From: an uncultured Bacteroidales bacterium | Lineage (GTDB): Bacteria; Bacteroidota; Bacteroidia; Bacteroidales; FEN-979 | Direction: 5' to 3' | Length of the DNA: 43,876 nt | Assembly (NCBI GenBank): GCA_903845055.1 | Contig: CAIMWF010000163.1 | Location: 1 to 43,876 of the forward strand | Shown here: positions 11,857 through 39,949 of the stretch, one piece after another | Layout of the letters: each line of letters begins with the position of its first letter | Position numbering within the stretch: position 1 is the first letter of the stretch | Translations under genes and position numbers: made by a program | Notes under the pieces: generated by a model | Databases searched by the model: none | Seen by the model: only the letters and a program-made list of their open reading frames with translations | What the model was told of the DNA's origin: nothing

Positions 11857-11927
11857 GCAGGTCTGATTTATGATAAGGAGTGCAAAATAAGCCATTTTCA
11901 ACGGTTTTTTAAAATAGAATTTAACCG

Positions 11928-11935
11928 TAGCTTTG
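11928..11935 (+). promoter_or_regulatory. -7 box (TAGCTTTG) upstream of the NDP-forming synthetase
   Basis: Exact TAnnTTTG match 45 bases before the ATG at 11981. A T-rich stretch (11905-11910) stands at the expected -33 distance but is not an exact TTTG. Confidence 0.4.
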
Positions 11936-11940
11936 TATTT

Positions 11941-11980
11941 GATTTCACCATTTCACCATTTCGCTATTTCGCCATTTAAT
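11941..11980. repeat. Intergenic phrase repeat, copy D (TTTCACCATTTCGCTATTTCGCC)
   Basis: Four consecutive TTTC(A/G)C(C/T)A words occupy the leader between the -7 box and the start codon of the synthetase gene. Same vocabulary as copy A at 5805. Confidence 0.6.
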
Positions 11981-16505: not shown

Positions 16506-16535
16506 TTGTTGCAACGTGGTTAAATATGCTTGCTG

Positions 16536-19500: not shown

Positions 19501-19934
19501 TCGTGGAGGAGGCGGTGATGCTTGAATTTCATCGGATCTCCGAGCGTGGCGGCGTGCTGGGCGCCATGGAGACCATGTACCAGCGCAGCAGGATCCAGGA
19601 GGAGAGCCTCTATTACGAAACCCTCAAACATTCAGGCAAACTCCCGATCATGGGGGTTAATACTTTCCTTTCAAGCAAGGGCTCCCCGACCGTCACACCC
19701 GGGGAGGTCATCCGGGCAACGGAAGAGGAAAAGCAATACCAGATCGCCATGCTTGCCGAACTGCACCGGACCAACGCGGAAAAATCGGGGATCATGACCC
19801 GACAATTGAGGGAGGCAGCTATAAAAAATAATAATATCTTTGAAAGCCTGATGGAGGCAACAAAATACTGTTCCATCGGGCAGATTACCGACGCTCTTTT
19901 CGAGGTCGGGGGACAATACCGGCGCAATATGTAA
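16536..19934 (+). CDS. icmF: Fused isobutyryl-CoA mutase with G-protein chaperone (IcmF)
   Basis: An 1132-residue adenosylcobalamin-dependent mutase that interconverts isobutyryl-CoA and n-butyryl-CoA (some members also isovaleryl/pivalyl-CoA). The domain order is diagnostic: N-terminal B12-binding domain with [13 protein letters not shown] and SYQGGH; a MeaI-type GTPase with P-loop [21 protein letters not shown] and NKFDKRG; a linker; and the C-terminal TIM-barrel mutase with AEAGANP and [12 protein letters not shown]. The ATG at 16536 is preferred; a TTG two codons earlier is also open. It is sandwiched between an acyl-CoA dehydrogenase and butyrate kinase, 19 bases before the latter. No B12 riboswitch was seen upstream. 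Confidence 0.93.
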
Positions 19935-25564: not shown

Positions 25565-27790
25565 TCATTCCTCCATTGGCATCCGGAACACTTTTATTTT
25601 CATTTTGCTGCCTTTCCCGTAATGGCAGGCTACCCAAAGATCATTGCCCTTCCCGGTAATTATTTTCGGGGCCCTTGCCGGCTCGTTGCCCGGGGTTAGT
25701 TTTACCGGTTTTTCTCCCGGATGCTGATCTTTCCGGGTAAGGTACAGGCTCCAGTCGCCCCTGGCTGAACGGCCGCTCCAGACCACAAAGACCTCCCCTT
25801 TGGCGGTGACTACCGCCTGGGGTGTCTGGTTCAGCACCGTTTTGTCATCTCCGGGCAATGTGGACGATGGCAGCCATTTCCCTGAGCCGGGTTCAAAAAC
25901 GGCATACCGGATTCGCTGGGGTTCACCATCCGCAGCATCCCATCCCGATGACTCCCAGAAAACCCATCGCTCTCCCTTTTGATCATGAACAGCACAGGGA
26001 TAACCGCCAGTTTCACTATCCTCCATTTTTTCATTCAGCCGGGTCACCGGTTGGGCCACGTCATGCAGGTTGCCTGAACAGACCCCCAGGGTGGCGGGGT
26101 AATGCTGGTTCCAGGCACCCCAGACCGTGCCGCTGGTATCAGTGTCAAGGCTGAAGCCCCAGCAGTTAACGTAACCGGACAGGTCATGACTCCGGGCAAT
26201 TTCTACCGGGTGCACGCTGTCGGGGATCCCGTTACGGATAAACCGGTAGTAAGGAAACCTGAAATTTGCCTTCCAGCAGGTCCAGGCCAGCATGAACCCG
26301 TTTCTTACGGGTGTTACGGCCGGGGATACTGCATCGCATGGAAGAATTTCCGAAAACAGGATCGGCTCCGAAAGTGCCGATCCGTCAAAACTCCTGCCGT
26401 AAACACGGTAAAACCCGTCCCGGTTGTTGAGGTAGCAGATCCAGAGTTTCCCGTTTGAAAAGGTGAGGAGCGGGTTGTAACTGTCCGACCTGTCATGTTC
26501 AACGGCGATTCTTACCGGGTGACGGCGGTCAACAGACGATAACAGGATGTCGCCATCCTCTTCCCAGCATACCCAGGCGGTTCCCAGGCTGTCCGAGGTG
26601 ATGGAAGGAAAGCGGCAGGAACCGTTCCCGAAGGTGTATTCTTCGCCAATGGCGGATTTTTTGTATCGTGGTATTTCTATGGTGACGGGATGTTCGGTGA
26701 GGACTTTTCTGACGGGTGCCCTGCAAACTCCCACGCAGTTTGCCATTGGTTTCAGGTGAGAAATACAGAGCGAATCGGAAAACCGCCAGTGGTTGCCAGG
26801 AAGCTTTTCAAATAAGCCCTGGAGCAGGATCCGGGTGGATTTTGATGTGCGGTCATAACTGTAAATGGTATAGTCAACGCTGTTGTCAAAAAATCCTTTA
26901 TCCACCATCTTTCCCCGTATTTTGAGGACGGTATATTTCTCCCGGTTCAGCGGGTTTGGAAAACAGGCCGAAATCCCCGTGGAATCAAGTCCGAAGCGAT
27001 AATTTCCCAGTTTAAGGACGGAATCGTTCTCCAGGATGAAGGGACCGTCAGAATCTGCAAATAACCTGGCAGCCTCCCGGGGAAACGGGCCTTCGAGGTA
27101 CATGTTTTTATGGAGATCCGAAGCCGTAAGAGCGCTGAAATATTTCACCAAATAGCAACTGGCACGATCCGCAAATTCACGGTTTGCCTCGAATCCTTTG
27201 ACATTGCCGTCGGCAATCACACAGGTGGCCTGATGATGAGCGTTTTCGTAAATGATCCGGGTGGCAAACTGCAGGTTGGAGACCGGCTGAAAGTGAACGG
27301 AAGGATCGTTCCAGAGGGTCATCTTGAGTGTTTCAAAACTTGAATCGTAAGGGTAAAGACTTCCTTCGGGTAATTTCACCACCTGCTCCCCATGACAGAA
27401 GGCCAGGATAACAGGAAACCCATCCCGGTGATAACGGTGGAGTTCGGGTGGCCATGTCAGGACAGGGACCTGTGAATCCTGGTAATGCTTTGTAAAGGCA
27501 TAAATATCCAGTTGCGGGTTGAACAAACACTGGGTGAAACTGAGGCCCCCTTTCCGCATGTTGGTCTCAAGGTAATTTTTTGCCGTGAACCATCCGTCGA
27601 AAAGGCAATAGCCGCAGTTGGAAGTCGAAAAAGGCTGGATCACGGTTGTTTTAGAGGAACGGATGATGCTGCCGAATGGAACTTTATTCCCCCAGAGATC
27701 CTCTGCAATTTTCACACCGGGACCCTGGGCCCGGGTGGTCATCCATGAACAAAGCAATATCATGCCGGCGAAAAGAATTCTTTTCATCAT
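25565..27790 (-). CDS. Secreted protein with N-terminal CxxC thioredoxin-like domain and long beta-repeat region
   Basis: A 741-residue exported protein (signal peptide to about residue 21, TTRAQ). Residues about 45-180 look like a thioredoxin-fold domain: TTVIQPFSTSNCGYCLFDGW holds C59 and C62 in a CGYC motif, and DGFPVILAF resembles the cis-Pro strand. The C-terminal part (about 395-741) contains repeated motifs such as GTAWVCWEEDGDI, GKLWICYLNNRDGFYRVYGR, GTVWGAWNQH and GEVFVVWSGRSARGDWSLYLTR, typical of sialidase/beta-propeller blades. No exact family is recognised. It starts 30 bases after the anti-sigma gene and probably belongs to its operon. Start could be either of two adjacent ATGs (27790 or 27787). 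Confidence 0.78.
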   Translation of the reverse strand: MMKRILFAGMILLCSWMTTRAQGPGVKIAEDLWGNKVPFGSIIRSSKTTVIQPFSTSNCGYCLFDGWFTAKNYLETNMRKGGLSFTQCLFNPQLDIYAFTKHYQDSQVPVLTWPPELHRYHRDGFPVILAFCHGEQVVKLPEGSLYPYDSSFETLKMTLWNDPSVHFQPVSNLQFATRIIYENAHHQATCVIADGNVKGFEANREFADRASCYLVKYFSALTASDLHKNMYLEGPFPREAARLFADSDGPFILENDSVLKLGNYRFGLDSTGISACFPNPLNREKYTVLKIRGKMVDKGFFDNSVDYTIYSYDRTSKSTRILLQGLFEKLPGNHWRFSDSLCISHLKPMANCVGVCRAPVRKVLTEHPVTIEIPRYKKSAIGEEYTFGNGSCRFPSITSDSLGTAWVCWEEDGDILLSSVDRRHPVRIAVEHDRSDSYNPLLTFSNGKLWICYLNNRDGFYRVYGRSFDGSALSEPILFSEILPCDAVSPAVTPVRNGFMLAWTCWKANFRFPYYRFIRNGIPDSVHPVEIARSHDLSGYVNCWGFSLDTDTSGTVWGAWNQHYPATLGVCSGNLHDVAQPVTRLNEKMEDSETGGYPCAVHDQKGERWVFWESSGWDAADGEPQRIRYAVFEPGSGKWLPSSTLPGDDKTVLNQTPQAVVTAKGEVFVVWSGRSARGDWSLYLTRKDQHPGEKPVKLTPGNEPARAPKIITGKGNDLWVACHYGKGSKMKIKVFRMPMEE

Positions 27791-27820: not shown

Positions 27821-29155
27821 TTAATATCCTCCGTCGACGCTCCAGGTGTGAAATGAATTGTCGTTGCGGAGTGCAAGGTTTCCCGAAAGGGTATCGCCCG
27901 ATGCCGATTGAACTAGGTATGGAACGAAAATGCCCGCGTACATCCCGGAACAAAAGGAATTTCCCAGGCTCAGGATCCTGATCCCGCCAAACCGTTTTCG
28001 GAGTATCTTCATGGGGATGCCCCCGGGGATGGTGAAGAGCGGGGAGAACCTTTCGGCCGTATTCCAATCGTTTTGTTCACAGGCCCTGAAAAACTTTTTT
28101 GCAGCTTCCTCCGCGCTGATGTTTTTAAATCCACTGGCAGTCGCCTTGTCCCAGTCATCCAGCGTAAGAAGCGGGCGCATTCCTTTGTTGGTGAATACGA
28201 ACAGGGAGTCGGGCAGCAGCTGGTCAGCCACGATCGAGGCCAGCCTGAGGACACAGACCTCCTCCGCTCCCGACTTGATGGTCACCGCAAGGGCAGTCAG
28301 CAGGTGTGTTTGTTTGTCAAAATGGTAAACCCGGAGGGTATTTGCTTCGGGAATACTGGAGTTCAACACCCATGGATTTGAAAATTTGCCACTGGCCGAT
28401 GCCATCACCGACAGTTCGAGGTCATTCCCCACTTCTCTTATTTTGCAGGAAGCAGGATGGTCTTTTGCATAGGAAAGTTCCGATTCCAGGATCCTGTCGG
28501 GTTCGAGGAAGAGCTTCATCCATCCCGTAAACCCGGCTTTGGGGGTTCCTTTCAGTACATAGCCCCCCGGTTTGTTGAGCATGAACTGTGATTCGCCGTC
28601 CATGATAATGGTTCTTCCCGGTTTTTCAAACCGCCACTTCGGGTTTGGGCCGAAAGTTTTCCAAACCCTGACATCTGTATATCCGGAGGCGGGATCGATG
28701 CTTTCAAAATTTTCGCCCGGAGCGGTGCGCACGGTAAAAACCATCGAAACCGTTTTCAGCGACCGGATAGCCCGGATCGATTGCGCCAGGATATTCCCGG
28801 CGATCGCCGGATTGCGGAAGGTGGCCAGGAGAACAACCACTGCGGCGACGGTGATGAAAACCGCGAAACTGGCGGCGATCCGCAGCCTCCCTGACCAAGG
28901 TCCGCGTGAAGCCGGGGAAATGTGCCGCATCCCCGGCTCTACGGCGGCAGAGGCAAGGATTGCTTCCATGCGTGCCTGCCTGGATGTCCTTCCCATAGCG
29001 GGAGCCAGCGAACCGGCGATGGAGAGGTAGTCAAGGTAAGCAATTGAACATTCCCCGCACGACCCGAGGTGTTCCAGCAATTGCTGTTTTTCTCCCGGGT
29101 CAGCCTGGTCATCGAAAAGGTTGGCGAACCTTTCCTGGAATTCTTCACATTTCAT
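27821..29155 (-). CDS. Anti-sigma factor with zinc-finger and periplasmic LolA-like domain
   Basis: A 444-residue single-pass membrane protein. Residues 1-45 hold a zinc-binding anti-sigma motif: C3, then HLGSCGEC (H29, C33, C36). One transmembrane helix lies near residues 92-115 (AASFAVFITVAAVVVLL). The periplasmic part has repeated beta structure (SLKTVSMVFTVRTAPG, KWRFEKPGRTIIMDG, DLELSVMASASGKF) like LolA/DUF2092-type sensor domains. It is coupled to the upstream sigma gene: the sigma stop TAG lies in the AGGAGGT ribosome-binding site (29161-29167). This is the usual pair in which the membrane protein holds the sigma factor until an envelope signal arrives. Confidence 0.85.
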   Translation of the reverse strand: MKCEEFQERFANLFDDQADPGEKQQLLEHLGSCGECSIAYLDYLSIAGSLAPAMGRTSRQARMEAILASAAVEPGMRHISPASRGPWSGRLRIAASFAVFITVAAVVVLLATFRNPAIAGNILAQSIRAIRSLKTVSMVFTVRTAPGENFESIDPASGYTDVRVWKTFGPNPKWRFEKPGRTIIMDGESQFMLNKPGGYVLKGTPKAGFTGWMKLFLEPDRILESELSYAKDHPASCKIREVGNDLELSVMASASGKFSNPWVLNSSIPEANTLRVYHFDKQTHLLTALAVTIKSGAEEVCVLRLASIVADQLLPDSLFVFTNKGMRPLLTLDDWDKATASGFKNISAEEAAKKFFRACEQNDWNTAERFSPLFTIPGGIPMKILRKRFGGIRILSLGNSFCSGMYAGIFVPYLVQSASGDTLSGNLALRNDNSFHTWSVDGGY

Positions 29156-29160
29156 GGGAT

Positions 29161-29168
29161 ACCTCCTA
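29161..29168 (-). promoter_or_regulatory. Shine-Dalgarno overlapping the sigma-factor stop codon
   Basis: AGGAGGT (29161-29167) shares bases with the TAG stop (29166-29168) of the sigma gene and lies 5 bases before the ATG at 29155. It decides the anti-sigma start and implies translational coupling. Confidence 0.75.
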
Positions 29169-29693
29169 CTTTTCATGGATCATCGACCTGAGTTTCATCA
29201 TGCCATAGGTAAACCTGGATTTTACGGTTGTAACCGGAACCCCGGCGATCATCGAAATCTCGGGAAAGGTGAGTCCTTCGGCAAACCGGTAACGGATGAC
29301 CCTTGCCTGTTCCTCCGGGATACGGGTCAGCAGATCGCGGATCCCCTGCTGTCGTTCCTCACGGATCAGCTCCTCCTCCCGCGATTCGGTCACACTTGCC
29401 ACCGAATCCAGGTACAGCCCGCTTACGGTGCGGTCGTGCGAATTTCTTCGCCGGATAGCATCAAGGCAGCCGTTGCTGACAATTTTGAACATGTAGCCAG
29501 CAGGATTATCAACCACCGACAGACTTTCACGCATCCCGTAAGCACGGATGAAAGCCTCCTGCACCACATCTTCTGCTTCGGCATAGTCGTTTAGCATGAA
29601 GCCCGCATGACGAGTGAGCGGTGTTAGGTACTTTGACAGGAATGACCGGAGCTCTTCGGACGATTGCGGGAAGCGGGAGCGGGGTTCATTCAT
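29166..29693 (-). CDS. ECF (sigma-70 family) RNA polymerase sigma factor
   Basis: A 175-residue extracytoplasmic-function sigma factor. Region 2 is visible as AGFMLNDYAEAEDVVQEAFIRAY and VDNPAGYMFKIVSNGCLDAIRR. Region 4 is IPEEQARVIRYRFAEGLTF followed by EISMIAGVPVTTVKSRFTYG. It directs transcription of an envelope-response regulon and is likely held by the adjacent anti-sigma factor. The promoter region shared with the divergent gene at 29861 contains an inverted repeat at 29738-29749. Confidence 0.92.
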   Translation of the reverse strand: MNEPRSRFPQSSEELRSFLSKYLTPLTRHAGFMLNDYAEAEDVVQEAFIRAYGMRESLSVVDNPAGYMFKIVSNGCLDAIRRRNSHDRTVSGLYLDSVASVTESREEELIREERQQGIRDLLTRIPEEQARVIRYRFAEGLTFPEISMIAGVPVTTVKSRFTYGMMKLRSMIHEK

Positions 29694-30918: not shown

Positions 30919-31464
30919 TTAAAATTCCACTGTATTTTCACCCAGCCATTTCCGGCATTCGGGACAAAGACTGTGGTTTTTCTGGTCGATATCCTCTACG
31001 TAAGTGCTTGATTTCATGACACAACTTTGCATCCTGCAGTGGATCAGGCCGAACATGTGTCCCAGTTCATGGATCACCTCCTTTTTAAACCTTTCGACCA
31101 TGAGGTGATGATCGGGGCTGAGACCGTAACACTCGTTGTTCAGCCGGTAGAGGGATGCGATACCGGTGCGGCCCCCCAGGAAGGCCTGCCCGAAAATATA
31201 GGTCAGGATCGGGATGAACAGGTCCACGTTGAACAACCCGAGCATTTTGCCCGTTACCGGCAGGATCAGTGAATCAACATGTTTCAGGAGGGTATTCCCG
31301 TTATACTGCCGACGGCCCGGGTCATAATAATCACTCAGGTCGATATGCCCCTCCCTGACCATCGCGGAAGTGCGGAATTCGAGTTTTACAACTTCGGCAA
31401 CACTTTCCAGGAGATCCTTCTCGAAATACCCGAATGAGATTAATGTAATTTCCGGCATTGTCAT
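30919..31464 (-). CDS. amzA: Archaemetzincin family zinc metallopeptidase
   Basis: A 181-residue metzincin. The signature HELGHMFGLIHC places the zinc ligands at H132, H136 and H142 with catalytic E133; downstream C148 in MQSCVM and the CPEC pair (C167, C170) form the second, family-specific zinc site together with C143. Length and motif layout match archaeal AmzA and the vertebrate archaelysins. The proteolytic target is unknown. It is the last gene of the kinase-regulator operon, 25 bases after the response regulator. A second ATG at 31458 (MPEITLIS) is an equally good start. No signal peptide is seen, so it is cytosolic. Confidence 0.88.
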   Translation of the reverse strand: MTMPEITLISFGYFEKDLLESVAEVVKLEFRTSAMVREGHIDLSDYYDPGRRQYNGNTLLKHVDSLILPVTGKMLGLFNVDLFIPILTYIFGQAFLGGRTGIASLYRLNNECYGLSPDHHLMVERFKKEVIHELGHMFGLIHCRMQSCVMKSSTYVEDIDQKNHSLCPECRKWLGENTVEF

Positions 31465-31489
31465 TGAGCAGGGGATAAAAGTCAGATTT

Positions 31490-32836
31490 TCAGGATCCGG
31501 AAGGGGGCTTTAATTCGTATTTTTTAATTTTGTTGTAAAGGGTAACCCTGTCAACTTTCAGGGCGGAGGCTGTGCGCGATATGTTCCAGTTGTATTTGTT
31601 CAGGATCTGGAAGATGTAGGATTTCTCGAAATCGTCAAGGCTTTCGGCAGGGGAGGCAACCATGGTTTTTTCAAGGGGAAGGTCCTTCAGGGTGATCTTT
31701 TTCCCGTTTCCGACTACAATGGCGCGTTCGATCATGTTTTCAAGTTCCCTGATGTTGCCGGGGAAGTTGAATTCCTTCAGCCGGTTCATTGCTGCCGGAT
31801 CAATTGTCATATCCTGCCGGTTCATCGAGGTACAGTATTTTCTAATGAAAAAGTCGACCAGCAGGGGAATGTCCTCGATGCGGTCGCGCAGGGGAGGTAG
31901 CTGGATGTTCATGACATTGAGGCGGTAAAAAAGATCCTCTCTGAAGGTCCCCTTTTCAACCATGCTTTTCAGGTCGCGGTTGGTAGCGCAGATGACCCTG
32001 AAATCGGAGGCGATTTCCTTGTTCCCGCCCACACGCATGAAACTTTTTGATTCGAGGACGCGCAGCAGTTCCACCTGCATTTTAGCCGAAATAGTTGCAA
32101 TTTCATCCAGGAAGATCGATCCGTTGTCGGCCATTTCAAACCGCCCTTTGCGGTTATACATGGCACCTGTAAAGGCTCCCTTTTCGTGACCGAATAGTTC
32201 GCTTTCGAGCAGGCTTTCAGTAAGTGCTCCGCAATGTACGCTGACAAACGGGAAGAACTTTCTTGGTGAATTGGCGTGGATCGCCCTTGCCACGAGTTCC
32301 TTCCCGGTACCGCTTTCACCGGTGATGATGACGGAGGAATTTGTCTGTGCCACACTCTCCACCTCGCGCAGCACATGCTTCATCGCCTCGCTGGTCCCGA
32401 TCAGGTCTTCGATGTTCTCCAGTGAAATAAGCTTGGTCCTGAGTGTTTCATTCTCCTCCGAAAGGGAGATCTGTTTGGTTGCGTTGCGGATCAGGTGCGT
32501 CAGGTCATCAGGATCGAATGGCTTGGTGACGTAATCGAAGGCTCCGTCCTTGAGGGCCTTAACCGCAGTGTCGACCGTTGCAAACGCCGTCATGACGATG
32601 ATGATGGAATCGCTCTTTAGCGATTTGATCCTCCGGAGCATCTCCAGCCCGTCCATCCCGGGCATTTTAATGTCGGCCAGGATGATGTCGTAACTGTCCG
32701 ATTCGAGCATTGTCAGTGCTTTTTTTGCATTTTCGGCACAATCCACGCTGAAACCATCCTCGGTGAACCAGTTAAACAGGGAATCCCTTACCGATTCTTC
32801 ATCATCGACCACTAGAATTGAAATTTTTCTTGGCAT
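31490..32836 (-). CDS. Sigma54-dependent response regulator (NtrC family)
   Basis: A 448-residue regulator with three domains: receiver (acidic D11/D12, phosphoacceptor D55 in LADIKMPGMDG), AAA+ ATPase (Walker A GESGTGKE, sigma54-contact loop GAFTGA, arginine/sensor region FNFPGNIRELENM) and a C-terminal Fis-type HTH (NISRTASALKVDRVTLYNKI). It activates sigma54 RNA polymerase after phosphorylation. The cognate kinase is the gene 12 bases upstream. The likely targets are the sigma54-like promoter at 39333-39348 and its upstream inverted repeats, which would make the whole 30.9-39.3 kb block one regulon (inference). Confidence 0.93.
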   Translation of the reverse strand: MPRKISILVVDDEESVRDSLFNWFTEDGFSVDCAENAKKALTMLESDSYDIILADIKMPGMDGLEMLRRIKSLKSDSIIIVMTAFATVDTAVKALKDGAFDYVTKPFDPDDLTHLIRNATKQISLSEENETLRTKLISLENIEDLIGTSEAMKHVLREVESVAQTNSSVIITGESGTGKELVARAIHANSPRKFFPFVSVHCGALTESLLESELFGHEKGAFTGAMYNRKGRFEMADNGSIFLDEIATISAKMQVELLRVLESKSFMRVGGNKEIASDFRVICATNRDLKSMVEKGTFREDLFYRLNVMNIQLPPLRDRIEDIPLLVDFFIRKYCTSMNRQDMTIDPAAMNRLKEFNFPGNIRELENMIERAIVVGNGKKITLKDLPLEKTMVASPAESLDDFEKSYIFQILNKYNWNISRTASALKVDRVTLYNKIKKYELKPPSGS

Positions 32837-32848
32837 GTTGGTGAATCT

Positions 32849-34522
32849 TTAAATTTTTGCCAGCGGGAAGGTCACGGAAATAGTTGTTCCGTGACCAAGC
32901 ACTGATTTTACCTGGATTTTTCCATTGTGGCTTTGAACGATCCCGTGCACAATGGCCAGCCCCAGTCCGATACCACTGGCGTCCTGTTTCGTCGAATAGA
33001 AAGGCTCAAAAATATGGGGAAGGTCTTCGTCCGAAATACCCAGCCCGTTATCCGTGATGTCGATCCTGATGGAATCCTCGTCGGGATTCCTGGTCTGGAT
33101 AGTGATCTCCCCGTTTTCCGTCAGGGCTTCCGAAGCATTTACCAGGATCGCAATACAGGCCTGCTTGATCTGGTTGGGGCTGCAATAGATGAGGTCGTAC
33201 TGTGCCGAAAAATCCTTTAAAAAAACGATATTGGCTATTTTGATGGGGTGCGACATGATCTCACAGGTGTCCTGGAGGATGTCGTGCAGGTTCTTCGGCT
33301 CAAAGTTATCCTGGTCTTTCCTGGAAAAATCAAGCAACCCTTTTACAATATCCCCGCAGCGTTTGGTCTCATTTTCGATCAGCTTCAGGTGTTTGAGCAT
33401 GGAGGTCCGCTTGATGTCGTCCAGGTCGGGGTTGCTCAGCTGTTTGTACAGCAATTTGGTGTAAATCAGTATTCCCGACAGGGGATTGTTGATTTCATGT
33501 GCCACGGAGGAGGATAATTTTCCAAGCGACGCCAGGCGTTCCACATGCATGAGTTCATTCTGGGCGGCACCAAGCTCTTCCGACTTTTTCTGGACCTTAT
33601 ATTCAAGCTGCTGCGACCAGTTCTCCAGTTCAATGTTTGCGGTCTGGAGGTTGTCGAGCATATCGTTGAATGCCCGCGACACCATCTTCATATCGTCGAG
33701 TTGGTTTGCTTTTATTTCAAGACGGGTATTTTTATCCCCGTTGGCGACGGCAATGCTGGCCCTGATCAGGGCGTTCAGCGGGTTTTTGATTTTTTTGCTG
33801 GTAAAGATGATCAGCAGCAACACGAGAACGAGGGTGGTAAAGATCGCCAGCAGGAAGAATTCTATGGAGGATTTCTTCACGGCGGCATCCAGGTCCCTCA
33901 GCGGGATCTTGACGATCAGTGATCCCAGAACGTCATCGGTCGCCTTATGGGCGTGGCATGAACTCAGGTAGCATGATTTTTCATTCAGGATGGGAAGTTT
34001 CATCAGCAGGTGCCGGCCTGTGTTGTCGTTCTTGTTCATCCGGCATTCGCTGTTGACATTGATAATCTTGTACGATTTCGCCCTTGGGGCGAACATGGTC
34101 TTCAGGTCGGTGTGGCAGCTGATGCAGTCGGGATTGCTGTGGCTGTTGCTGGTATCGGAGGGAATCGAAGTGTAAACGAGGTTGTCGTCGTCGTCGTACA
34201 TGTTTACCTCGTCGATCCCCGACATGGTATTCACCAGGTCGAGGGTATTCTGTAGGGTGCTTTTATTGTTTTCGAGCATTGAATGGTACAGGGATCCTTC
34301 GACGATTGATCCGATGTTGTTGCCATTCTGACGAATGACGGTGTTCAGGTACTGTTCATTGACCGACCGGAAAATAAGGCTGAAGGAGACAAACAGGAAA
34401 ACCGACATCAGGGTGATCAGGAATACCACCCGGCCATATATCGAGGAACGGAACTTGACATACCGGGAAAATATCCGGTTTCCTGTACCATTTTTATTGG
34501 CCGGTTTAGGAAAGAAAATCAT
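32849..34522 (-). CDS. Membrane histidine kinase with periplasmic haem c-type motifs
   Basis: A 557-residue sensor kinase. Two transmembrane helices (about 32-52 and 220-240) enclose a periplasmic domain of about 170 residues. This domain carries CISCH (C133-H137), a canonical haem c attachment motif, and a second CYLSSCH (C184-H190), a CX4CH spacing known from some multihaem cytochromes. A HAMP-like linker, a coiled-coil stretch (about 295-325), the phosphoacceptor H342 in AHEINNPLSG, and N/G boxes (ITDNGLGISDED, GIGLGLAIVHG) follow. It probably senses redox state or a haem ligand (oxygen, NO) outside the inner membrane and signals to the regulator behind it. Confidence 0.9.
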   Translation of the reverse strand: MIFFPKPANKNGTGNRIFSRYVKFRSSIYGRVVFLITLMSVFLFVSFSLIFRSVNEQYLNTVIRQNGNNIGSIVEGSLYHSMLENNKSTLQNTLDLVNTMSGIDEVNMYDDDDNLVYTSIPSDTSNSHSNPDCISCHTDLKTMFAPRAKSYKIINVNSECRMNKNDNTGRHLLMKLPILNEKSCYLSSCHAHKATDDVLGSLIVKIPLRDLDAAVKKSSIEFFLLAIFTTLVLVLLLIIFTSKKIKNPLNALIRASIAVANGDKNTRLEIKANQLDDMKMVSRAFNDMLDNLQTANIELENWSQQLEYKVQKKSEELGAAQNELMHVERLASLGKLSSSVAHEINNPLSGILIYTKLLYKQLSNPDLDDIKRTSMLKHLKLIENETKRCGDIVKGLLDFSRKDQDNFEPKNLHDILQDTCEIMSHPIKIANIVFLKDFSAQYDLIYCSPNQIKQACIAILVNASEALTENGEITIQTRNPDEDSIRIDITDNGLGISDEDLPHIFEPFYSTKQDASGIGLGLAIVHGIVQSHNGKIQVKSVLGHGTTISVTFPLAKI

Positions 34523-34592
34523 GGCAATACAATTTACGGAGTGGTGAAAAAATGCAGGTTACAAACGGGGCTATTTCATTGCAAAATACAAA

Positions 34593-34618
34593 AAAACCGG
34601 TGATGTCCGACCGGTTTT
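34593..34618 (-). terminator. Hairpin with T-run between the second GcvH-like gene and the kinase
   Basis: AAAACCGGT and ACCGGTTTT form a 9-base stem with an 8-base loop. On the minus strand it is followed by a run of Ts (TTTTTTTG), so it can terminate or attenuate transcription arriving from the redox genes before the kinase gene. Confidence 0.78.
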
Positions 34619-34709
34619 CAGCAATCTGTTGAATATTTTTCAATTTCACGGCATCAAAGGGCCTGCAGCGAGTCAACCGCAGCAGGAGGCCGGAAATAAC
34701 CTGCCGGGG

Positions 34710-35423
34710 CTATGGTGTTAAAAATTCCTTCTGGAAATCCTGCCAGATCTCGTTTGGAAGAGACGACAGGGTATGATCGCTCAACTCACCACCGTCCTGC
34801 AGGATGACCATTGCAGATTCAGGTGCATACTTCCGCATGGTAACGGCCAGGAAATCCTTAAACCGTTCGAGTTCCTCCTTCGACCAGTTCGTAGCCTTGT
34901 CCGCCACCATGAAGGAGGAGGTTTCGGCCACCCAGTTGGTGGGTTTAATCTTGTAAAGCCATCCTTCACCGTATGGATCCTCGTTCAGCAACCCTGGATT
35001 TTCCTGTAAAACCAGGTTGGTGCGTATGATGGTTCCCGAAAGCGGTGAAAATATCCGGAGCGGTTTCCCCTGGTGGTTGATCTCGGCGATCATGTCGCCT
35101 TTCTGAATGCTTTCAAACGGGTTCCTGAGCTTTGTAAAGACAACCTCCCCGGTGAGGTGCAGCAGTAAATCATCCAGTCCGAGGCTGGCAATCCCCGATT
35201 TTTCAAGGTGTGCCCAGGTGTGGTTTTTACTGAAAAACAGCCCCTGGGGTATCTTTAGGATGCCCGCCGAGAGAATTCCCATCGCATTCCTGAGTTGCCT
35301 GGTGATTTTAGCCTGCCGGCTCAGGATCACCGAAAAGGGGATCAGCAGGGCCAGGAAGGCAATGATAATGAGGTACTCCGCCCCTTTGGTGGCGAAAATA
35401 TCGGTATAGCTGAATCCTTCCAT
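34710..35423 (-). CDS. Membrane-anchored GcvH-like protein with a shared C-terminal domain
   Basis: A 237-residue protein: one N-terminal membrane helix (about 15-36), a GcvH-type lipoyl-domain fold (62-165) and a C-terminal part of about 70 residues. The GcvH fold is plain: LFFSKNHTWAHLE, LTGEVVF, FSPLSGTI, and LNEDPYGEGWLYKIKP. At the place of the lipoyl-lysine, however, aligned from SPLSG, stands G119, with K120 directly after it (NHQGKPL). The C-terminal motif VILQDGGELSDHTL...WQDFQ recurs in the protein at 37609-39300. The start at 35423 is chosen because it gives the membrane helix and avoids overlap with the HybB-like gene. Role unknown; part of the redox operon. Confidence 0.82.
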   Translation of the reverse strand: MEGFSYTDIFATKGAEYLIIIAFLALLIPFSVILSRQAKITRQLRNAMGILSAGILKIPQGLFFSKNHTWAHLEKSGIASLGLDDLLLHLTGEVVFTKLRNPFESIQKGDMIAEINHQGKPLRIFSPLSGTIIRTNLVLQENPGLLNEDPYGEGWLYKIKPTNWVAETSSFMVADKATNWSKEELERFKDFLAVTMRKYAPESAMVILQDGGELSDHTLSSLPNEIWQDFQKEFLTP

Positions 35424-35482
35424 TGGTTTGGTTTTTATGGGACCAGCCTGTTTTAATTTTGACAGACAGGTACCCGGTGTAT

Positions 35483-36709
35483 TTATTTTTGATCTTTGAC
35501 CCAGGCAGGCGGATCTTTTAAAACCGGCATGCGGTTGATCACCCACCTGAATATCCATATTTCAGTGAAAATTACCGCCAGGGTGACCACCAGTTCCATC
35601 CATGAGGGCACATATCTCACCGGCATGTCCCACCTGAAACCAATGACCGTTACATTCAACCGGTTCAGGATTACGCCTGCCATGGTCAGGATGGCTGCCA
35701 GCCGGATCATGATAACGTTCCTGGTACGGGAACTGTAAACAAAAAGTATCATCGGCAGTAGCACGAATCCGAGCATTTCGGTAAGAAACCAGCATCCCAT
35801 CCCTGTAAATAAAAGGTTCCAGTGCTGACCGTGGATAAAGACCAGCAACTGGAGGAAAAAATAGGCAAACATGGTCCCTGCGCAGATCTTTGCAAGTCCC
35901 TGTAGAATTCCTCCCTGGGCACGGTGGTTTTTTTCACTGATCTGAGCTGCAAAAACCTTGTGGCTGATGCTGCCTTCGAAGATCACCATCGACAACCCGG
36001 CAAAAATGCTGGAAACAAAAAACATGACAGGGATGAATTCGGAATACCACAGCGGATGTATCTTTTCCTTTGCCATAAGGTACAGGGCACCCAGCCCCGA
36101 CTGGTGAAGGGTGGAAAGGGTGATCCCGAATATGACTGCGGCAATGGTCATTCCCGACAGGATTTTTCTCGCCCGCCTCGAACCAAGCCATTCGGCAATG
36201 ACCGGGGAAAATTCGATCAGCTGGGCGAACATGTAAAGCAGGAAGTGCCAGGCGACCAAAAACAATACCGAACTGGTGCCGAAACTGTTTCCGATCACCG
36301 GGTTGATCACGTGCCACGGCCGGCCCAGGTCAAGGAGCAGGGCCCCGGCATAGAACACATAGGCCAGGAAACCGTTTAGCACGGTGATCCTGACGATTGA
36401 ATGGTATTTCCGCATGTTAAGGATGTACACCATGAAGGTAATAACGTAAGCACCCCCGGCAAAGGCAACGCCGGTCACCACATCAAATCCGATCCAGAGA
36501 CCCCATGGGATCTCCTGGGTCAGGTTGGTGATCGCACCTATCCCTTTCATGAACCGGATGACGATCAGCACCAGGCCCAGCAGCATGACGGGCAGGGAAA
36601 TCATGTTAAAAGGGGTAAAGAATTTCCCCCTGGGACGGAATTCACCTGCCAGGAATTTCCAAACGGACCTGTTTCCCTGGTCCGCGTTGATCGGAATTGT
36701 GTTATTCAT
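35483..36709 (-). CDS. NrfD/HybB-like quinone-reactive membrane subunit
   Basis: A 408-residue integral membrane protein with about ten hydrophobic segments. HybB-like signatures include EIPWGLWIGFDVVTGVAFAGG, LLDLGRPWHV and STLHQSGLGALY followed by HPLWYSEF. The family passes electrons between an iron-sulfur subunit and the quinone pool. The ATG at 36709 overlaps the end of the HybA-like gene (stop 36702-36704), and its ribosome-binding site lies in that gene. HybB normally works with a [NiFe] hydrogenase or another oxidoreductase; none is encoded in this window, which leaves the electron donor or acceptor open. Confidence 0.9.
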   Translation of the reverse strand: MNNTIPINADQGNRSVWKFLAGEFRPRGKFFTPFNMISLPVMLLGLVLIVIRFMKGIGAITNLTQEIPWGLWIGFDVVTGVAFAGGAYVITFMVYILNMRKYHSIVRITVLNGFLAYVFYAGALLLDLGRPWHVINPVIGNSFGTSSVLFLVAWHFLLYMFAQLIEFSPVIAEWLGSRRARKILSGMTIAAVIFGITLSTLHQSGLGALYLMAKEKIHPLWYSEFIPVMFFVSSIFAGLSMVIFEGSISHKVFAAQISEKNHRAQGGILQGLAKICAGTMFAYFFLQLLVFIHGQHWNLLFTGMGCWFLTEMLGFVLLPMILFVYSSRTRNVIMIRLAAILTMAGVILNRLNVTVIGFRWDMPVRYVPSWMELVVTLAVIFTEIWIFRWVINRMPVLKDPPAWVKDQK

Positions 36710-37565
36710 CTTCCTCCTCCTCCCCGTTGTTGGCATCGTTTTTTGTTGCCTGCTGAATTCCGAGCAATAATGCAGGGACCAGGACGAAAATTGTCGGCAC
36801 GCTATACAGGAACCCCTTCGTCAGGGCCGGGTAGGAGGCCTGCTGGAGGGTGGTGTTCATGCCGAGTTGCTCAAACGGAACCGGGGCCACATAAAGCCAC
36901 CCTGTGCCCCCGGCTTCATGTTCACCATAAACATGATCGTGATAGAGACCAGGTTTTTCAAAGATCCGCCGGTGTGCCTCCCTGATCAGGTCACGGCGCT
37001 TCCCGTAAAGAAGCGCATCGTTCGGGCAGTTGAAGGCACAGGCCGGTTGTTCGCCGGTTTTGAGACGGCTATAACACATGTCGCATTTCTGTATTCTTGG
37101 ATTGGCACTGTGATATTCGAATTTTGGCATGTCCCACGGACAGGAAACCATACAGTACCTGCACCCCATGCATTTATCTCCATCCCAGGTGACGGGCCCC
37201 ACAACCGTTTTATGCATGGCTTTGGTAAGGCAGGCAGCCACGCAGGCGGGCTCATTGCAATGCATGCACTGCCGCTTGATGAAAACCTCCCCACGGGATG
37301 TCTTGTAGGTATTGATGACCGTATTGCGGGTTTCGTCGGTTTTCCTGATATCGGGAACCTTTTTGACAGGTTCGGGCAAACCGTGTGCCTCGGCACAGTC
37401 AAATTCGCATCCCCGGCAGCCTTTGCAACGTGTACCGTCGTGCAGGATACCGTAATACTCGATGGTGGTGCTTCCCAACCTGCCTGCGCCGGCCTCGCTC
37501 CCGATGGCCAGGGTTGCACCCGCAACTCCCAGCGTTTTAAAAAACCCCCGTCTTGTAAGTCCCAT
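36702..37565 (-). CDS. HybA-like periplasmic [4Fe-4S] protein with Tat signal
   Basis: A 287-residue iron-sulfur electron-transfer subunit. The N-terminus TRRGFFK is a twin-arginine export signal. Sixteen cysteines form four [4Fe-4S] sites: C47/50/53/57 (CKGCRGCEFDC), C100/103/108/112, C132/135/138/142 (CMGCRYCMVSC) and C161/164/176/180. A C-terminal membrane helix (about 252-275) and an acidic tail match HybA rather than soluble DmsB. It should sit on the outer face of the inner membrane next to the HybB-like subunit and pass electrons to or from quinone. Its redox partner is not evident in the window. Confidence 0.92.
   Translation of the reverse strand: MGLTRRGFFKTLGVAGATLAIGSEAGAGRLGSTTIEYYGILHDGTRCKGCRGCEFDCAEAHGLPEPVKKVPDIRKTDETRNTVINTYKTSRGEVFIKRQCMHCNEPACVAACLTKAMHKTVVGPVTWDGDKCMGCRYCMVSCPWDMPKFEYHSANPRIQKCDMCYSRLKTGEQPACAFNCPNDALLYGKRRDLIREAHRRIFEKPGLYHDHVYGEHEAGGTGWLYVAPVPFEQLGMNTTLQQASYPALTKGFLYSVPTIFVLVPALLLGIQQATKNDANNGEEEEDE
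36707..36721 (-). promoter_or_regulatory. Shine-Dalgarno inside the acidic tail of the HybA-like gene
   Basis: On the minus strand GGAGGAGGAGGAAG runs into ATG. The same bases encode the C-terminal EEEEDE tail of the HybA-like protein and act as a strong ribosome-binding site for the HybB-like start at 36709, so the two subunits are translationally coupled. Confidence 0.7.
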
Positions 37566-37608
37566 AACCTGCTGTTTTTATTTGGTTTTTTGGGAAAAGT
37601 GATTGATT

Positions 37609-39300
37609 TTACCTGGCCTTGTCGATAAAATTCCTTTGAAAATCTTCCCATACCTTGGGATTCAGATCAGCGAGAAGGTTGTCGGTCAGGTCTCCGCCAT
37701 CCTGAAGGATGACCGGTGAAAATTCAAGGGTATGCATGTTGACCGCGGCGGCGAAGAAATCCTTAAGTCTTGAGAATTCATCCTTAAGCCAGGTCTTATA
37801 TCGGTCAGCCATCGAGAGGAATTGAATATCGCGCAGCCAGTTGGCGGGTTCAATCAGATAAACCCAGCCGTCGGTGTATGGGGCAGTGTTGAGCATGGAG
37901 GTAATGCTGAGGAGCCCTTTGTTGTGTGCCGTGATGGTCCCCGAAACAGGTGCATAAAGATGCAGTTGTTTGCCATCGTGGACCATGGTAAGCAGGGGGT
38001 CGCCCTTCCTGATTTTTTCACCTGGTTCCCTCATCTCGATGCGGGTGAGGGTCCCGGTGATGTGTTGCATAAAGTCATCAACGCCCAGTTTCACCGACCC
38101 GTCCTTTTCCATGAAGGCCCAGGTATGGGTTTTGTCGAAAAACAGACCCTTTGGCAGCACGACCGAGTTCTCATCGAATACGCCGGGGATGGAACCTGGC
38201 TGGTGGTTTTCGGCAACCATGTTTTTCCTGTTTACCCTTAGTAAGAGGTCAATGATGGACCCGATGACGACCAGCGAGATGAAAATAAGCAAAACGATTT
38301 TCAGGATGCTGTATCCGTCGAAGGAACTCACCAGTGGCGTTGCAGGAACATAATTAAGCCTGTTCATCTGTGATTCTCTTTCGTTGTACACAAGGTCGCT
38401 GATCCCCTGCGAGCCGAGCAGTTTCTGCCCGTCGGAAACAACCCACATCAGGAAGGATGCTCCCTCTCCTCCCACAGGCTGGGAGGCGGCAACGGCGTAA
38501 ATGTTCCCCGACAGAGCCCTTGGATATTTCCCGATCCACACCCCGCGCGCGAAGGCCTGGGGATCATCATATATTTTTTCCATGTAATCGATGGTGCCGT
38601 TGCCGTTCTTGTCGATGGGTACCAGCCTGATATTCTCGGGAAGGTTAAGCGAACTGGCATCCATAAGGGTGCCTAGCCTGCAGAAACCAATGGCATCCGG
38701 GTCGCTTTTCAGAAGGGCTGAGATTGCGGCTCCGTTTTCAACCACCCTCATCGTAATGATGCTCTTGTCGACCCCGGTGAAGTCAGCCACCCCTGAAACA
38801 ACATTCTTTTCATTGACCACATAACAACGAACCGGGGTATTCTGACTGTTACCCAGGAGCATTCCCCAGGTCACATCACCCTTGTTCTGAAAAATGGCCT
38901 TAAAGAAGTTGGGAGAAATGCCTTTCCTGGCAATCGCGGCTGCGAATGAATTTTTTGTACTCATCACCGGCACAATCACATCACGGCCTACTACCATGTT
39001 CCAGGAATTCTCCCCGGAAAGCAAAGGATCCGATTCGCGCGAAACAAAACCGATTTCCCCGGCCTTCAGCTGCGATTTCATTGCTCCTTCCGGGATCCTG
39101 GTCACCACCATATTCACTTTCGGGTTCAAACGGCTGTATTCAGCAGCCCACATACTGGCCATCGGATATAACCCCGGAGTACTCAGTACGTTGATAGTCC
39201 CACCTGTGCCTGCGACGATGGAGGAGGCTGGCTTCCCGCTGAATGAACTGATGCTGCCGAGCATCAGAATGGTTACGAACAAAATGATCCTGGTTTTCAT
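37609..39300 (-). CDS. PstS-like binding domain fused through a membrane helix to a GcvH-like domain
   Basis: A 563-residue fusion and first gene of the redox operon. A signal peptide (to about 22) is followed by a PstS-type periplasmic binding domain (about 30-320: GTINVLSTPGLYPMASMWA, IGFVSRESDPLL, GVWIGKYPRALSG). In it lies an EF-hand-like loop DKNGNGTIDYME (230-241). A membrane helix (333-355) leads to a cytoplasmic-side GcvH-like domain (385-490: LFFDKTHTWAFME, LYAPVSGTITAHN). At the lipoyl-lysine position, aligned from APVSG, is G443 with K444 after it (HDGKQL). The end shares VILQDGGDLTDNL and WEDFQ with the protein at 34710. Ligand and role are unknown; databases may call it a phosphate-binding protein, which I doubt because no transporter genes are near. 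Confidence 0.83.
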   Translation of the reverse strand: MKTRIILFVTILMLGSISSFSGKPASSIVAGTGGTINVLSTPGLYPMASMWAAEYSRLNPKVNMVVTRIPEGAMKSQLKAGEIGFVSRESDPLLSGENSWNMVVGRDVIVPVMSTKNSFAAAIARKGISPNFFKAIFQNKGDVTWGMLLGNSQNTPVRCYVVNEKNVVSGVADFTGVDKSIITMRVVENGAAISALLKSDPDAIGFCRLGTLMDASSLNLPENIRLVPIDKNGNGTIDYMEKIYDDPQAFARGVWIGKYPRALSGNIYAVAASQPVGGEGASFLMWVVSDGQKLLGSQGISDLVYNERESQMNRLNYVPATPLVSSFDGYSILKIVLLIFISLVVIGSIIDLLLRVNRKNMVAENHQPGSIPGVFDENSVVLPKGLFFDKTHTWAFMEKDGSVKLGVDDFMQHITGTLTRIEMREPGEKIRKGDPLLTMVHDGKQLHLYAPVSGTITAHNKGLLSITSMLNTAPYTDGWVYLIEPANWLRDIQFLSMADRYKTWLKDEFSRLKDFFAAAVNMHTLEFSPVILQDGGDLTDNLLADLNPKVWEDFQRNFIDKAR

Positions 39301-39332: not shown

Positions 39333-39348
39333 TTCAATTATGATGCCA
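39333..39348 (-). promoter_or_regulatory. Sigma54-like -24/-12 promoter of the redox operon
   Basis: On the minus strand TGGCATCATAATTGAA aligns to TGGCACGNNNNTTGCW with the invariant GG, the exact spacing and TTG; deviations are T for C, C for G and A for the C of the -12 GC. A start site about 12 bases downstream would leave a leader of about 22 bases before the ATG at 39300. The operon's own regulator is a sigma54 activator, which supports the call. Confidence 0.6.
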
Positions 39349-39424: not shown

Positions 39425-39441
39425 TGTTGAAAAAATCAACA
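39425..39441. promoter_or_regulatory. Inverted repeat TGTTGA-N5-TCAACA (possible activator site 1)
   Basis: Six-base perfect arms with a 5-base A-rich spacer, about 110 bases upstream of the predicted sigma54 start site, a normal distance for an NtrC-type enhancer. The same hexamers occur in the repeat at 39504-39519. Confidence 0.45.
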
Positions 39442-39503
39442 CCCATTATAAATAATTGATATAAGAAGCAACAAATCAGCGTCATGGCCCTGGTGTATAA
39501 ATA

Positions 39504-39519
39504 TTCAACACATGTTGAA
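39504..39519. promoter_or_regulatory. Inverted repeat TTCAAC-N4-GTTGAA (possible activator site 2)
   Basis: Six-base perfect arms with a 4-base spacer; contains the hexamers TCAACA and TGTTGA also found at 39425-39441. It is about 190 bases upstream of the predicted start. Two related sites fit cooperative binding of the response regulator. Confidence 0.45.
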
Positions 39520-39949
39520 ATAATATACAGTAACATTTTAAACAACACAAAATGAATATGTTAAAGGATGACTTCTGAAAGCAGGATGAGTGTGGCAATT
39601 AAAGCATATCTTTGAGTTGCATAATATCCAAACGGATTGGATGTCAAATATGAACAGCAATTTCATGTGGTTTGAAAGAAAAAAGCAATCCGGTAATGCA
39701 TGGAAAACCCACCCCCGGTGCGCTGAAATATGGCCTGATTCTCTGCCCGTTCATCCTGCTGCTGATGGTATTTGTGCCGCGCAATTACAAGGTTCCATGT
39801 CAGCGGGTCAGGGAAAGCACCCGCTCTGGAATTTACCGACCGGATCACATATCGCCTATGCACTGGTTCCGGCCATTCCATTTCAGTGGAACATTCAGCA
39901 TTGTATTTCAATACGATACGCGATTTTTTAACGGATCAAATTTCGACCG

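Follow-up and report, generated by a model that had tools for sequence, protein, structure and literature searches.

We identified a seven-gene operon on contig CAIMWF010000163.1 of an uncultured Bacteroidales bacterium (43,876 nucleotides, analysed at full length and hereafter called the window), which we propose encodes a quinone:periplasmic-cytochrome oxidoreductase with GcvH-like cytoplasmic adaptors under dihaem two-component control, a reading to which we assign a probability of about 0.55. The window is an entire contig of one genome, which is 3.95 Mb and 95% complete. According to this proposal, electron exchange between the membrane subunit HybB and the quinone pool would be coupled to proton movement, and a periplasmic, tail-anchored HybA would relay the electrons through its four Fe–S clusters to a multihaem cytochrome c. 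This acceptor may be soluble or located in the outer membrane, and its gene would adjoin the cluster in some relatives but lie at another site in the rest; as a guess, we favour quinol oxidation outwards as the direction of electron flow. The GcvH proteins would be membrane-anchored, cytoplasm-facing adaptors between the complex and the two-component system, the kinase would carry a periplasmic dihaem redox sensor, and the NtrC-type regulator encoded in the operon would, in this branch, activate it from a sigma54 promoter. We infer complex formation, haem binding and sensing, binding of the regulator to its palindromes, the cytochrome partner and the role of GcvH from the sequences.

The complete unit spans positions 30919–39300 on the minus strand. 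Its first gene (37609–39300) encodes a PstS–GcvH fusion of 563 amino acids, which we characterized with Pfam and NCBIfam models, an AlphaFold2 model, Foldseek and alignments of 29 and 78 rows. It is followed by a HybA/HmcB-like four-cluster Fe–S protein with the twin-arginine translocation (Tat) motif TRRGFFK and a C-terminal transmembrane (TM) segment (36702–37565), a HybB/HmcC-like quinone subunit of the NrfD family (35483–36709), and GcvH2, in which an N-terminal TM segment precedes a GcvH-like domain and a C-terminal extension (34710–35423). The open reading frame (ORF) of HybB is open to 36736, and its likely start at 36709 gives an eight-base overlap with HybA that is the same in several relatives; the GcvH2 ORF is open to 35558, with a likely start at 35423. 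The remaining genes encode a sensor histidine kinase with CxxCH and CX4CH motifs ahead of HAMP, HisKA and HATPase domains (32849–34522), an NtrC-family sigma54 response regulator with a GAFTGA motif that is found in 56 of 58 sequences (31490–32836), and an archaemetzincin (M54; 30919–31464; 153 bits, cut-off 145) with an intact zinc motif, HEXXHXXGXXHCX4CXM...CXXC (56 of 57).

A named-genome scan returned 239 stretches that encode a relative of this system, and we used the best 80 of the 239, all of them from Bacteroidota metagenome-assembled genomes and many from Bacteroidales. Clustering of the ORFs from these 80 loci and the window yielded seven families that were each found in 56 to 81 loci, with the next family in just 7. 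For gene order we counted the 56 loci whose downstream sequence reaches 8.5 kb or more. The order PstS–GcvH, HybA, HybB, GcvH2, kinase, regulator, archaemetzincin, on one strand, was found in 47 of these 56 Bacteroidota loci; six had a short order of PstS–GcvH, kinase, regulator and archaemetzincin, and three deviated (L054, L065 and L107). Among the 25 loci with less sequence, L113 is complete, L078 is short and L121 looks short until the contig ends. The original prediction, made from the window alone, had described four same-strand genes encoding a 16-cysteine HybA-type Fe–S protein and a HybB-type subunit flanked by two membrane-anchored GcvH-like proteins, one fused to a PstS domain, and had proposed a search for the same gene order elsewhere. 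These four genes are present in the window as the front of the operon, their products carry TM segments and matches to GCV_H and, under the cut-off, to PBP_like_2, HybA has at least 16 cysteines in 66 of 66 sequences, and the order recurs in the 47 loci. The four genes are thus conserved together, but the real unit is larger than predicted, with the kinase, the sigma54 regulator and the archaemetzincin added.

By their profile matches and alignments, HybA and HybB probably belong with HmcB/HmcC and with E. coli HybA/HybB. HybA scored 313 bits against NCBIfam HmcB (cut-off 420) and 219 bits against HybA, and HybB scored 405 bits against HmcC (cut-off 550) and 253 bits against HybB/PRK10881, in each case under the cut-off. 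A search of the PDB with HybB as a single sequence gave no match at E ≤ 0.001, and with a HybB profile the sole match was 6f0k_C, an NrfD-family subunit. The window proteins are 35% (HybA) and 28% (HybB, across 384 columns) identical to their E. coli counterparts. A Tat motif of the RRxF type was found in 65 of 66 HybA sequences; a C-terminal hydrophobic stretch (C-tail) is recognizable by eye, and the HybB gene lies directly 3′. This Tat plus C-tail architecture is common to the window and E. coli hydrogenase-2, as are four proton-path residues: R89, Y99, E148 and H184 of E. coli HybB are invariant in an eight-row alignment, and replacing them lowers H2 oxidation (Lubek 2019, cited in PMC8076601). 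HybB is 75–85% identical to the window protein in 27 of 29 window-type rows and, together with the regulator (74–79% identical in five loci), is among the best conserved proteins. As a quinone–electron module, the redox core is of an established type; what is new is its apparent coupling to GcvH and a two-component system.

As the original prediction had noted, no hydrogenase, molybdopterin or other catalytic subunit was found among the operon genes (window ORFs searched with Pfam and NCBIfam), and the obvious outside candidates, hydrogenase and PF00384, were also negative. The operon might instead encode a membrane arm that serves a hydrogenase, formate dehydrogenase or other molybdoenzyme with its catalytic subunit at another locus, just as E. 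coli HybA/HybB work with HybO/HybC, neither of which is among the window operon genes. We consulted 61 relatives, 33 of which have PstS–GcvH (two of them in two frames); HybB was found in 24 of these 33 genomes, as a single copy beside PstS–GcvH, except in G005, in which the two are on different contigs. Full-length PF00374 hydrogenase is present in 16 of the 24 HybB-positive genomes and PF00384 (E ≤ 1e-20) in 22 of 24, as this alternative would have it, but neither enzyme class is universal, in searches that covered these two classes and no other. Full-length PF00374 is absent from 8 of the 24, and no PF00384 subunit was found at E ≤ 1e-20 in the window's own genome or in G005, both HybB-positive; these genomes are 70–100% complete, so that absence of an enzyme from them is no proof. 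In addition, the hydrogenase of the window's own genome has its own b561-type cytochrome. We consider a remote catalytic subunit unlikely, and rejected both hydrogenase as the partner and a molybdopterin enzyme as a universal partner. The own-genome hydrogenase operon (contig C97, L141, 6766–14236) is of a group-1-like NiFe type, with small and large subunits, the b561-type cytochrome and a maturation protease, and is followed by hyp-like genes.

The proposed oxidoreductase would deliver its electrons to a cytochrome, and a published precedent exists for such a pairing. A stand-alone module of a tail-anchored HybA-like protein and HybB/NrfD has been described with an octahaem cytochrome (PMC10924467). 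Like the window operon, this module lacks a classical catalytic subunit and has cytochrome c as its likely partner; the Tat signal, the C-tail and the directly downstream HybB gene are also found in the window, whereas a periplasmic cytochrome c is not part of the window operon. No ORF of at least 90 amino acids with at least three CxxCH motifs was found inside window-type operons in the 80 loci and the window; the multi-CxxCH ORFs of L062, L066 and L111 are 5′ of the operon. L126 and L205 have a gene for a c554-like tetrahaem cytochrome (PF13435) within the operon, and L062 and L128 have one adjoining it. We rejected this protein as a universal partner, as it was found (E ≤ 1e-15) in only 5 of 61 relatives, all five of them HybB-positive, and not in the window's own genome. 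Large multihaem cytochromes with 11–19 haem motifs adjoin HybA–HybB clusters in L212, L213, L222–L227, L231–L237 and L239, accompanied by tetrahaem ORFs of the c554-like type and a hexahaem protein resembling NapC, as if electrons were conducted to the cell surface. L213 also has a b561-like ORF just under the Pfam cut-off, and a b561 domain within its 18-haem protein.

We found that the GcvH-like domain retains the fold of the H protein without its lipoyl lysine. In the PstS–GcvH fusion, an N-terminal hydrophobic helix is followed by a periplasmic binding protein (PBP) domain (residues ~34–315), a TM segment (329–362), the GcvH-like domain (~380–490) and a conserved C-terminal extension. The GCV_H match has a Pfam E value of 1e-18, with NCBIfam gcvH under its cut-off, and the modelled domain superimposes on the E. 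coli H protein 3a8k with a Foldseek template-modelling score of 0.92 and a root-mean-square deviation of 1.5. In a gapless alignment to 1onl and 3a8i, Gly443 occupies the position of the lipoyl lysine and Lys444 follows one residue later. Both residues, within a hairpin of equal length whose 19 residues run from G433 to P451, are found in 78 of 78 PstS–GcvH sequences (one of our alignments omits L033, which has an internal stop, and another omits L046, L108 and L118). In E2 domains, a shift of the lipoyl lysine by one residue is reported to abolish lipoylation. GcvH2 has GK in 48 of 61 sequences, GR or GN in 5 and an unmatched pattern in 8; among other-class orthologues, some keep K at the Lys444 place (GcvH1 of L126 and L131) and many have R, N, H or another residue. 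Because glycine holds the lipoyl-lysine position and the K444 place varies across classes, the PstS–GcvH and GcvH2 domains are probably not lipoyl carriers.

These data bear on two further ideas. The original prediction had drawn a parallel with LbpA, a lipoate carrier of the sHdr pathway; the GcvH fold is common to both, but the window proteins differ in their membrane anchor, their C-terminal extension and the glycine at the lipoyl-lysine position, and the parallel is weak. No glycine-cleavage or sHdr enzyme was found among the seven conserved families, rarer neighbours being unannotated. If Lys444, although shifted, carried a lipoyl or other acyl group for redox chemistry as in LbpA, this would account for the invariance of G443–K444 in an intact fold, for GK in most GcvH2 proteins and for the lysine kept in some other-class GcvH1, but would have to accommodate a lysine that the gapless alignment places one residue past the lipoyl site and its replacement by Arg, Asn, His or other residues in many other-class orthologues; we regard it as very unlikely. 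Lys and Arg are more frequent after the TM segment than before it in 77 of 81 PstS–GcvH and 59 of 61 GcvH2 proteins, so the GcvH domains are predicted to be cytoplasmic. When plasmids were searched by tblastn with PstS–GcvH, 41 records matched, none over more than 80% of the query, with the GcvH part matched among the matches listed.

The PstS part of the fusion has lost sequence features that its transporter relatives conserve. The domain matches PBP_like_2 with an E value of 3e-5, under the curated cut-off, and structurally matches 4jwo, 1twy and 4omb by Foldseek, with a profile E value of 1e-8 to 4h1x. For comparison with the 78 PstS–GcvH rows we took four PstS-like transporter proteins from Bacteroidota, including one from the window's own genome that precedes two BPD_transp_1 permease genes. 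Of 107 transporter-invariant columns, 29 are kept in at least 70 of the 78 rows and 56 are kept in at most 15. The segments SGAFA, GGAGKG, TRSDxxGAA, GDPG and SPPAR are lost in the fusion, and on our own reading of the family these hold the ligand. As for what the PstS domain binds, which the original prediction had asked, a phosphate-like ligand is unlikely. The PBP fold is common to both groups, as is the EF-hand-like loop PIDxNxNGxID, which is retained in the scaffold and which we consequently discarded as a fusion-specific novelty. The PstS part would be a scaffold, recruited for the periplasmic side and lacking the family's usual ligand site. Some matches to models of the glycine cleavage H protein or of phosphate-binding protein are probably neither.

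To place the fusion relative to the redox pair, we built a tree of 81 PstS–GcvH proteins, in which L046, L058, L064, L096 and L118, with no visible operon type, were scored as not short, and L121, in which the kinase is directly next and the contig then ends, was scored as short. Short operons are scattered over the tree and require at least six changes, five of which are imposed by branches with good support; as few changes were seen in 12 of 500 shuffles. No HybB turned up in G006, G011, G032 or G035, which have short operons, and HybA was not separately searched in short-type genomes. HybA, HybB and GcvH2 appear to have been lost jointly and repeatedly, and we read this as loss and not gain because other classes have the full set. 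We read PstS–GcvH as belonging also with the kinase, the regulator and the protease, so that it would not be solely a subunit of the redox complex.

To the operons of the window's own class can be added orthologous ones from other classes of the phylum, which have no PstS and begin with a TM-GcvH gene. In 13 of the 16 that were read (L126, L127, L129, L131, L132, L205, L206, L208, L210, L213, L214, L215 and L219), GcvH2 has no TM segment and carries instead a four-Cys N terminus, C-x2-W/M ... LCD/LCE ... C-x2-C, which is perhaps a metal site. The HybA genes without a visible signal peptide (L126–L133 and L202–L219) keep the C-terminal hydrophobic stretch, with no obvious Tat partner in the cluster; a HybA-like protein lacking a signal has also been described beside an Fe–Fe hydrogenase (PMC10924467).

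In a sister cluster, GcvH is fused to receiver domains. Its order is HybA, HybB, a 13-haem cytochrome, a dihaem kinase, a receiver–GcvH protein (~265 amino acids) and a TM–receiver–GcvH protein (~385 amino acids), and its HybA has the Tat motif in 6 of 6 sequences read. The 13-haem protein of L210, the only one scanned, has HmcA as its best match (61.6 bits, cut-off 400). We found 51 receiver–GcvH ORFs in 25 loci (L208/L209, L210, L211, L212, L216, L217 and L221–L239), and 24 of the 25 have HybA or HybB in the same stretch; in the remaining one, L225, HybB is on another contig of the genome. An ORF with at least 16 haem motifs is present in 14 of the 25. L231 deviates in having a third receiver–GcvH gene and a five-haem ORF before HybA, and in G354 and G192 the two cluster types are adjacent. 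The kinases also agree: CxxCH plus CX4CH was found in 27 of 27 kinase ORFs of 561–679 amino acids and 24 of 25 of 491–560 amino acids at receiver–GcvH loci, and window-type kinases have CxxCH in 64 of 64 and CX4CH in 63 of 64. The sister-cluster kinase of L210 (13165–15033, plus strand) has a zinc-ribbon-like insertion, matched by PF13240 at residues 493–514, between its HisKA and ATPase matches. The alignment of the 51 receiver–GcvH proteins is rough, 20 rows having an extra residue at this site; in it, 9 proteins carry a lysine in the canonical position and 12 in the shifted one.

The receiver–GcvH fusions are the strongest hint that GcvH is a signalling output and not a carrier. In the sister clusters, the GcvH domain would be the output domain of a response regulator. 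We tentatively extend this to a broader possibility, in which a cofactor-free GcvH-like domain is the output module of two-component systems with periplasmic dihaem sensors, binds HybB/HmcC-type complexes at their cytoplasmic face and gates electron flow to multihaem cytochromes post-translationally. If this is true, PstS–GcvH and GcvH2 of the window would be receiver-free members of the same group, with PstS adding a periplasmic contact, and a respiratory complex would be under phosphorylation control through a re-used H-protein fold. The same fusions might alternatively serve a redox-sensing apparatus, in which HybA–HybB report the balance of quinone and periplasm to the kinase through GcvH with little energy-conserving flux. 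This would fit the persistence of PstS–GcvH with kinase, regulator and protease where HybA, HybB and GcvH2 are missing (6 of 56 loci), and a regulon that seems to consist mostly of the operon itself, with palindromes outside the operon scattered among the matches listed. By contrast, HybB retains the four mutated proton-path residues and is highly conserved, and 14 of the 25 sister-cluster loci encode cytochromes with at least 16 haem motifs, which suggest that electrons really do flow; we consider pure sensing doubtful.

To determine how often the redox pair is accompanied by GcvH, we used a HybB search of 395 phylum genomes that was blind to GcvH. It identified 65 HybB places in 59 genomes, with GcvH within 8 kb at 55; this count takes matches down to E ~2e-39, merges gene pieces, includes the window's own genome and that of the query, and omits weaker NrfD matches at 1e-31 to 1e-34. 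Of the ten places without GcvH in 8 kb, that of G347 has a receiver–GcvH gene, at that of G303 a GcvH gene lies some 8 kb away beside a second HybB-like gene, and those of G393:C146 and G107 reach contig ends. Five of the other six are clusters of HybA, HybB and a 12/13-haem cytochrome. Because these six HybB places have no GcvH nearby, GcvH is not obligatory for HybA–HybB: judged from these gene neighbourhoods, HybA–HybB can occur with just a cytochrome, and GcvH-linked signalling would be a frequent companion.

The regulatory arm of the proposal is consistent with the DNA upstream of the operon. Upstream of PstS–GcvH in the window is a sigma54-type promoter, TGGCATCATAATTGA, with the −12 element TTGA (39334–39348, minus strand), which in the window alone is not significant (0.36 expected). 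Further upstream are an exact copy of the palindromic enhancer-like site TGTTGA-N5-TCAACA (39425–39441) and two copies with two mismatches each (39494–39510 and 39513–39529). Across loci, a sigma54-type element TGGYAH-N5-TTGA/C was found 5′ of PstS–GcvH in 58 of 77 (0.5 expected from shuffles) and the palindrome with at most two mismatches in 75 of 77 (4.2 expected), with a median spacing of 93 bases between them (57 loci); the shuffles used two-base blocks and are a rough control. Both elements were present in 8 of 8 short-type loci. Among 19 other-class operons, which had no shuffle control, at least one upstream palindrome was found in 13 and a looser promoter pattern in 5, two of these more than 300 bases away. 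In a palindrome search of the 61 relatives, AT-core copies were located at the operon in the genomes that have one, and matches outside it appeared scattered by eye, in both cases among the matches listed. Among these matches there was no sign of a wider regulon of the NtrC-type regulator, although further targets may exist.

Several observations weigh against the oxidoreductase reading. Of the 25 HybB residues tabulated in PMC8076601, just 13 are invariant in the eight-row alignment. PstS–GcvH persists without HybA–HybB in 6 of 56 loci, and 9 of 33 genomes with PstS–GcvH have no HybB; conversely, no GcvH-like gene was found near 6 of the 65 HybB places (G449, G256, G366, G374, G220 and G319:C4). 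In 17 of 18 other-class operons, with L204 the exception, HybA has no signal peptide visible by eye, which makes its periplasmic place uncertain. No cytochrome is universal. The PstS–GcvH model has a mean predicted local distance difference test score of 81 and a predicted template-modelling score of 0.52, so its domain arrangement is uncertain. Lys444, despite its shift by one residue, never varies in PstS–GcvH, and a canonical lysine is aligned in 9 of 51 receiver–GcvH proteins, which leaves room for modification. Finally, loci L126–L252 were picked through matches to the GcvH part and are subject to selection bias, and the profile models that label other-class and sister loci were built from these same loci; only the HybB search of the relatives and the GcvH-blind search of phylum genomes are free of it.

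The Hmc complex of sulfate reducers (HmcABCDEF) supplies the best NCBIfam matches for its HybA-like and HybB-like proteins, yet the operon has no ORF for HmcA, HmcD, HmcE or HmcF, and the six Hmc subunits as described in the accessible part of PMC10924467 include no GcvH, PstS domain or archaemetzincin. The same part of that paper reports no flanking-gene pattern for the stand-alone module and does not mention GcvH, whereas the window operon has conserved GcvH-like proteins and a two-component system. Mros1572/1571 of Melioribacter roseus, an NrfCD-like Fe–S and NrfD pair without a molybdopterin subunit, has been proposed to feed multihaem cytochromes (PMC3534657), and by description alone is similar. 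Glycine cleavage, lipoyl and histidine kinase are not mentioned in the accessible part of PMC8076601. An archaemetzincin-like domain acts in transcription in the CarG protein of Myxococcus (PMC3427221). A literature search revealed no paper that joins GcvH with HybA, HybB or NrfD by title or abstract, most subscription papers being beyond its reach. Within the reach of this search, the claim that no characterized complex has this composition holds for the GcvH coupling but not for the bare HybA–HybB module, which is published (PMC10924467).

In a range of anaerobes, modules of the HybA–HybB/HmcBC type form the link between quinones and electron carriers of the periplasm. To our knowledge, little is known about how they are controlled. 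The operon and its sisters hint at an unrecognized way of controlling respiration: they suggest that a metabolic carrier fold, stripped of its cofactor, now serves in several Bacteroidota classes as an adaptor at the membrane that connects a haem-based redox sensor with a respiratory complex.

Elsewhere in the window, the ORFs at 25565–27790, 27821–29176 and 10513–11901 (all minus strand; 741, 451 and 462 amino acids) had no Pfam match at E ≤ 1e-5. The plus strand encodes an acyl-CoA synthetase, ADP-forming by its domains, with a C-terminal GNAT acetyltransferase domain (11933–14665; 910 amino acids), and a fused B12-binding, MeaB GTPase and methylmalonyl-CoA mutase protein of 1134 amino acids (16530–19934).

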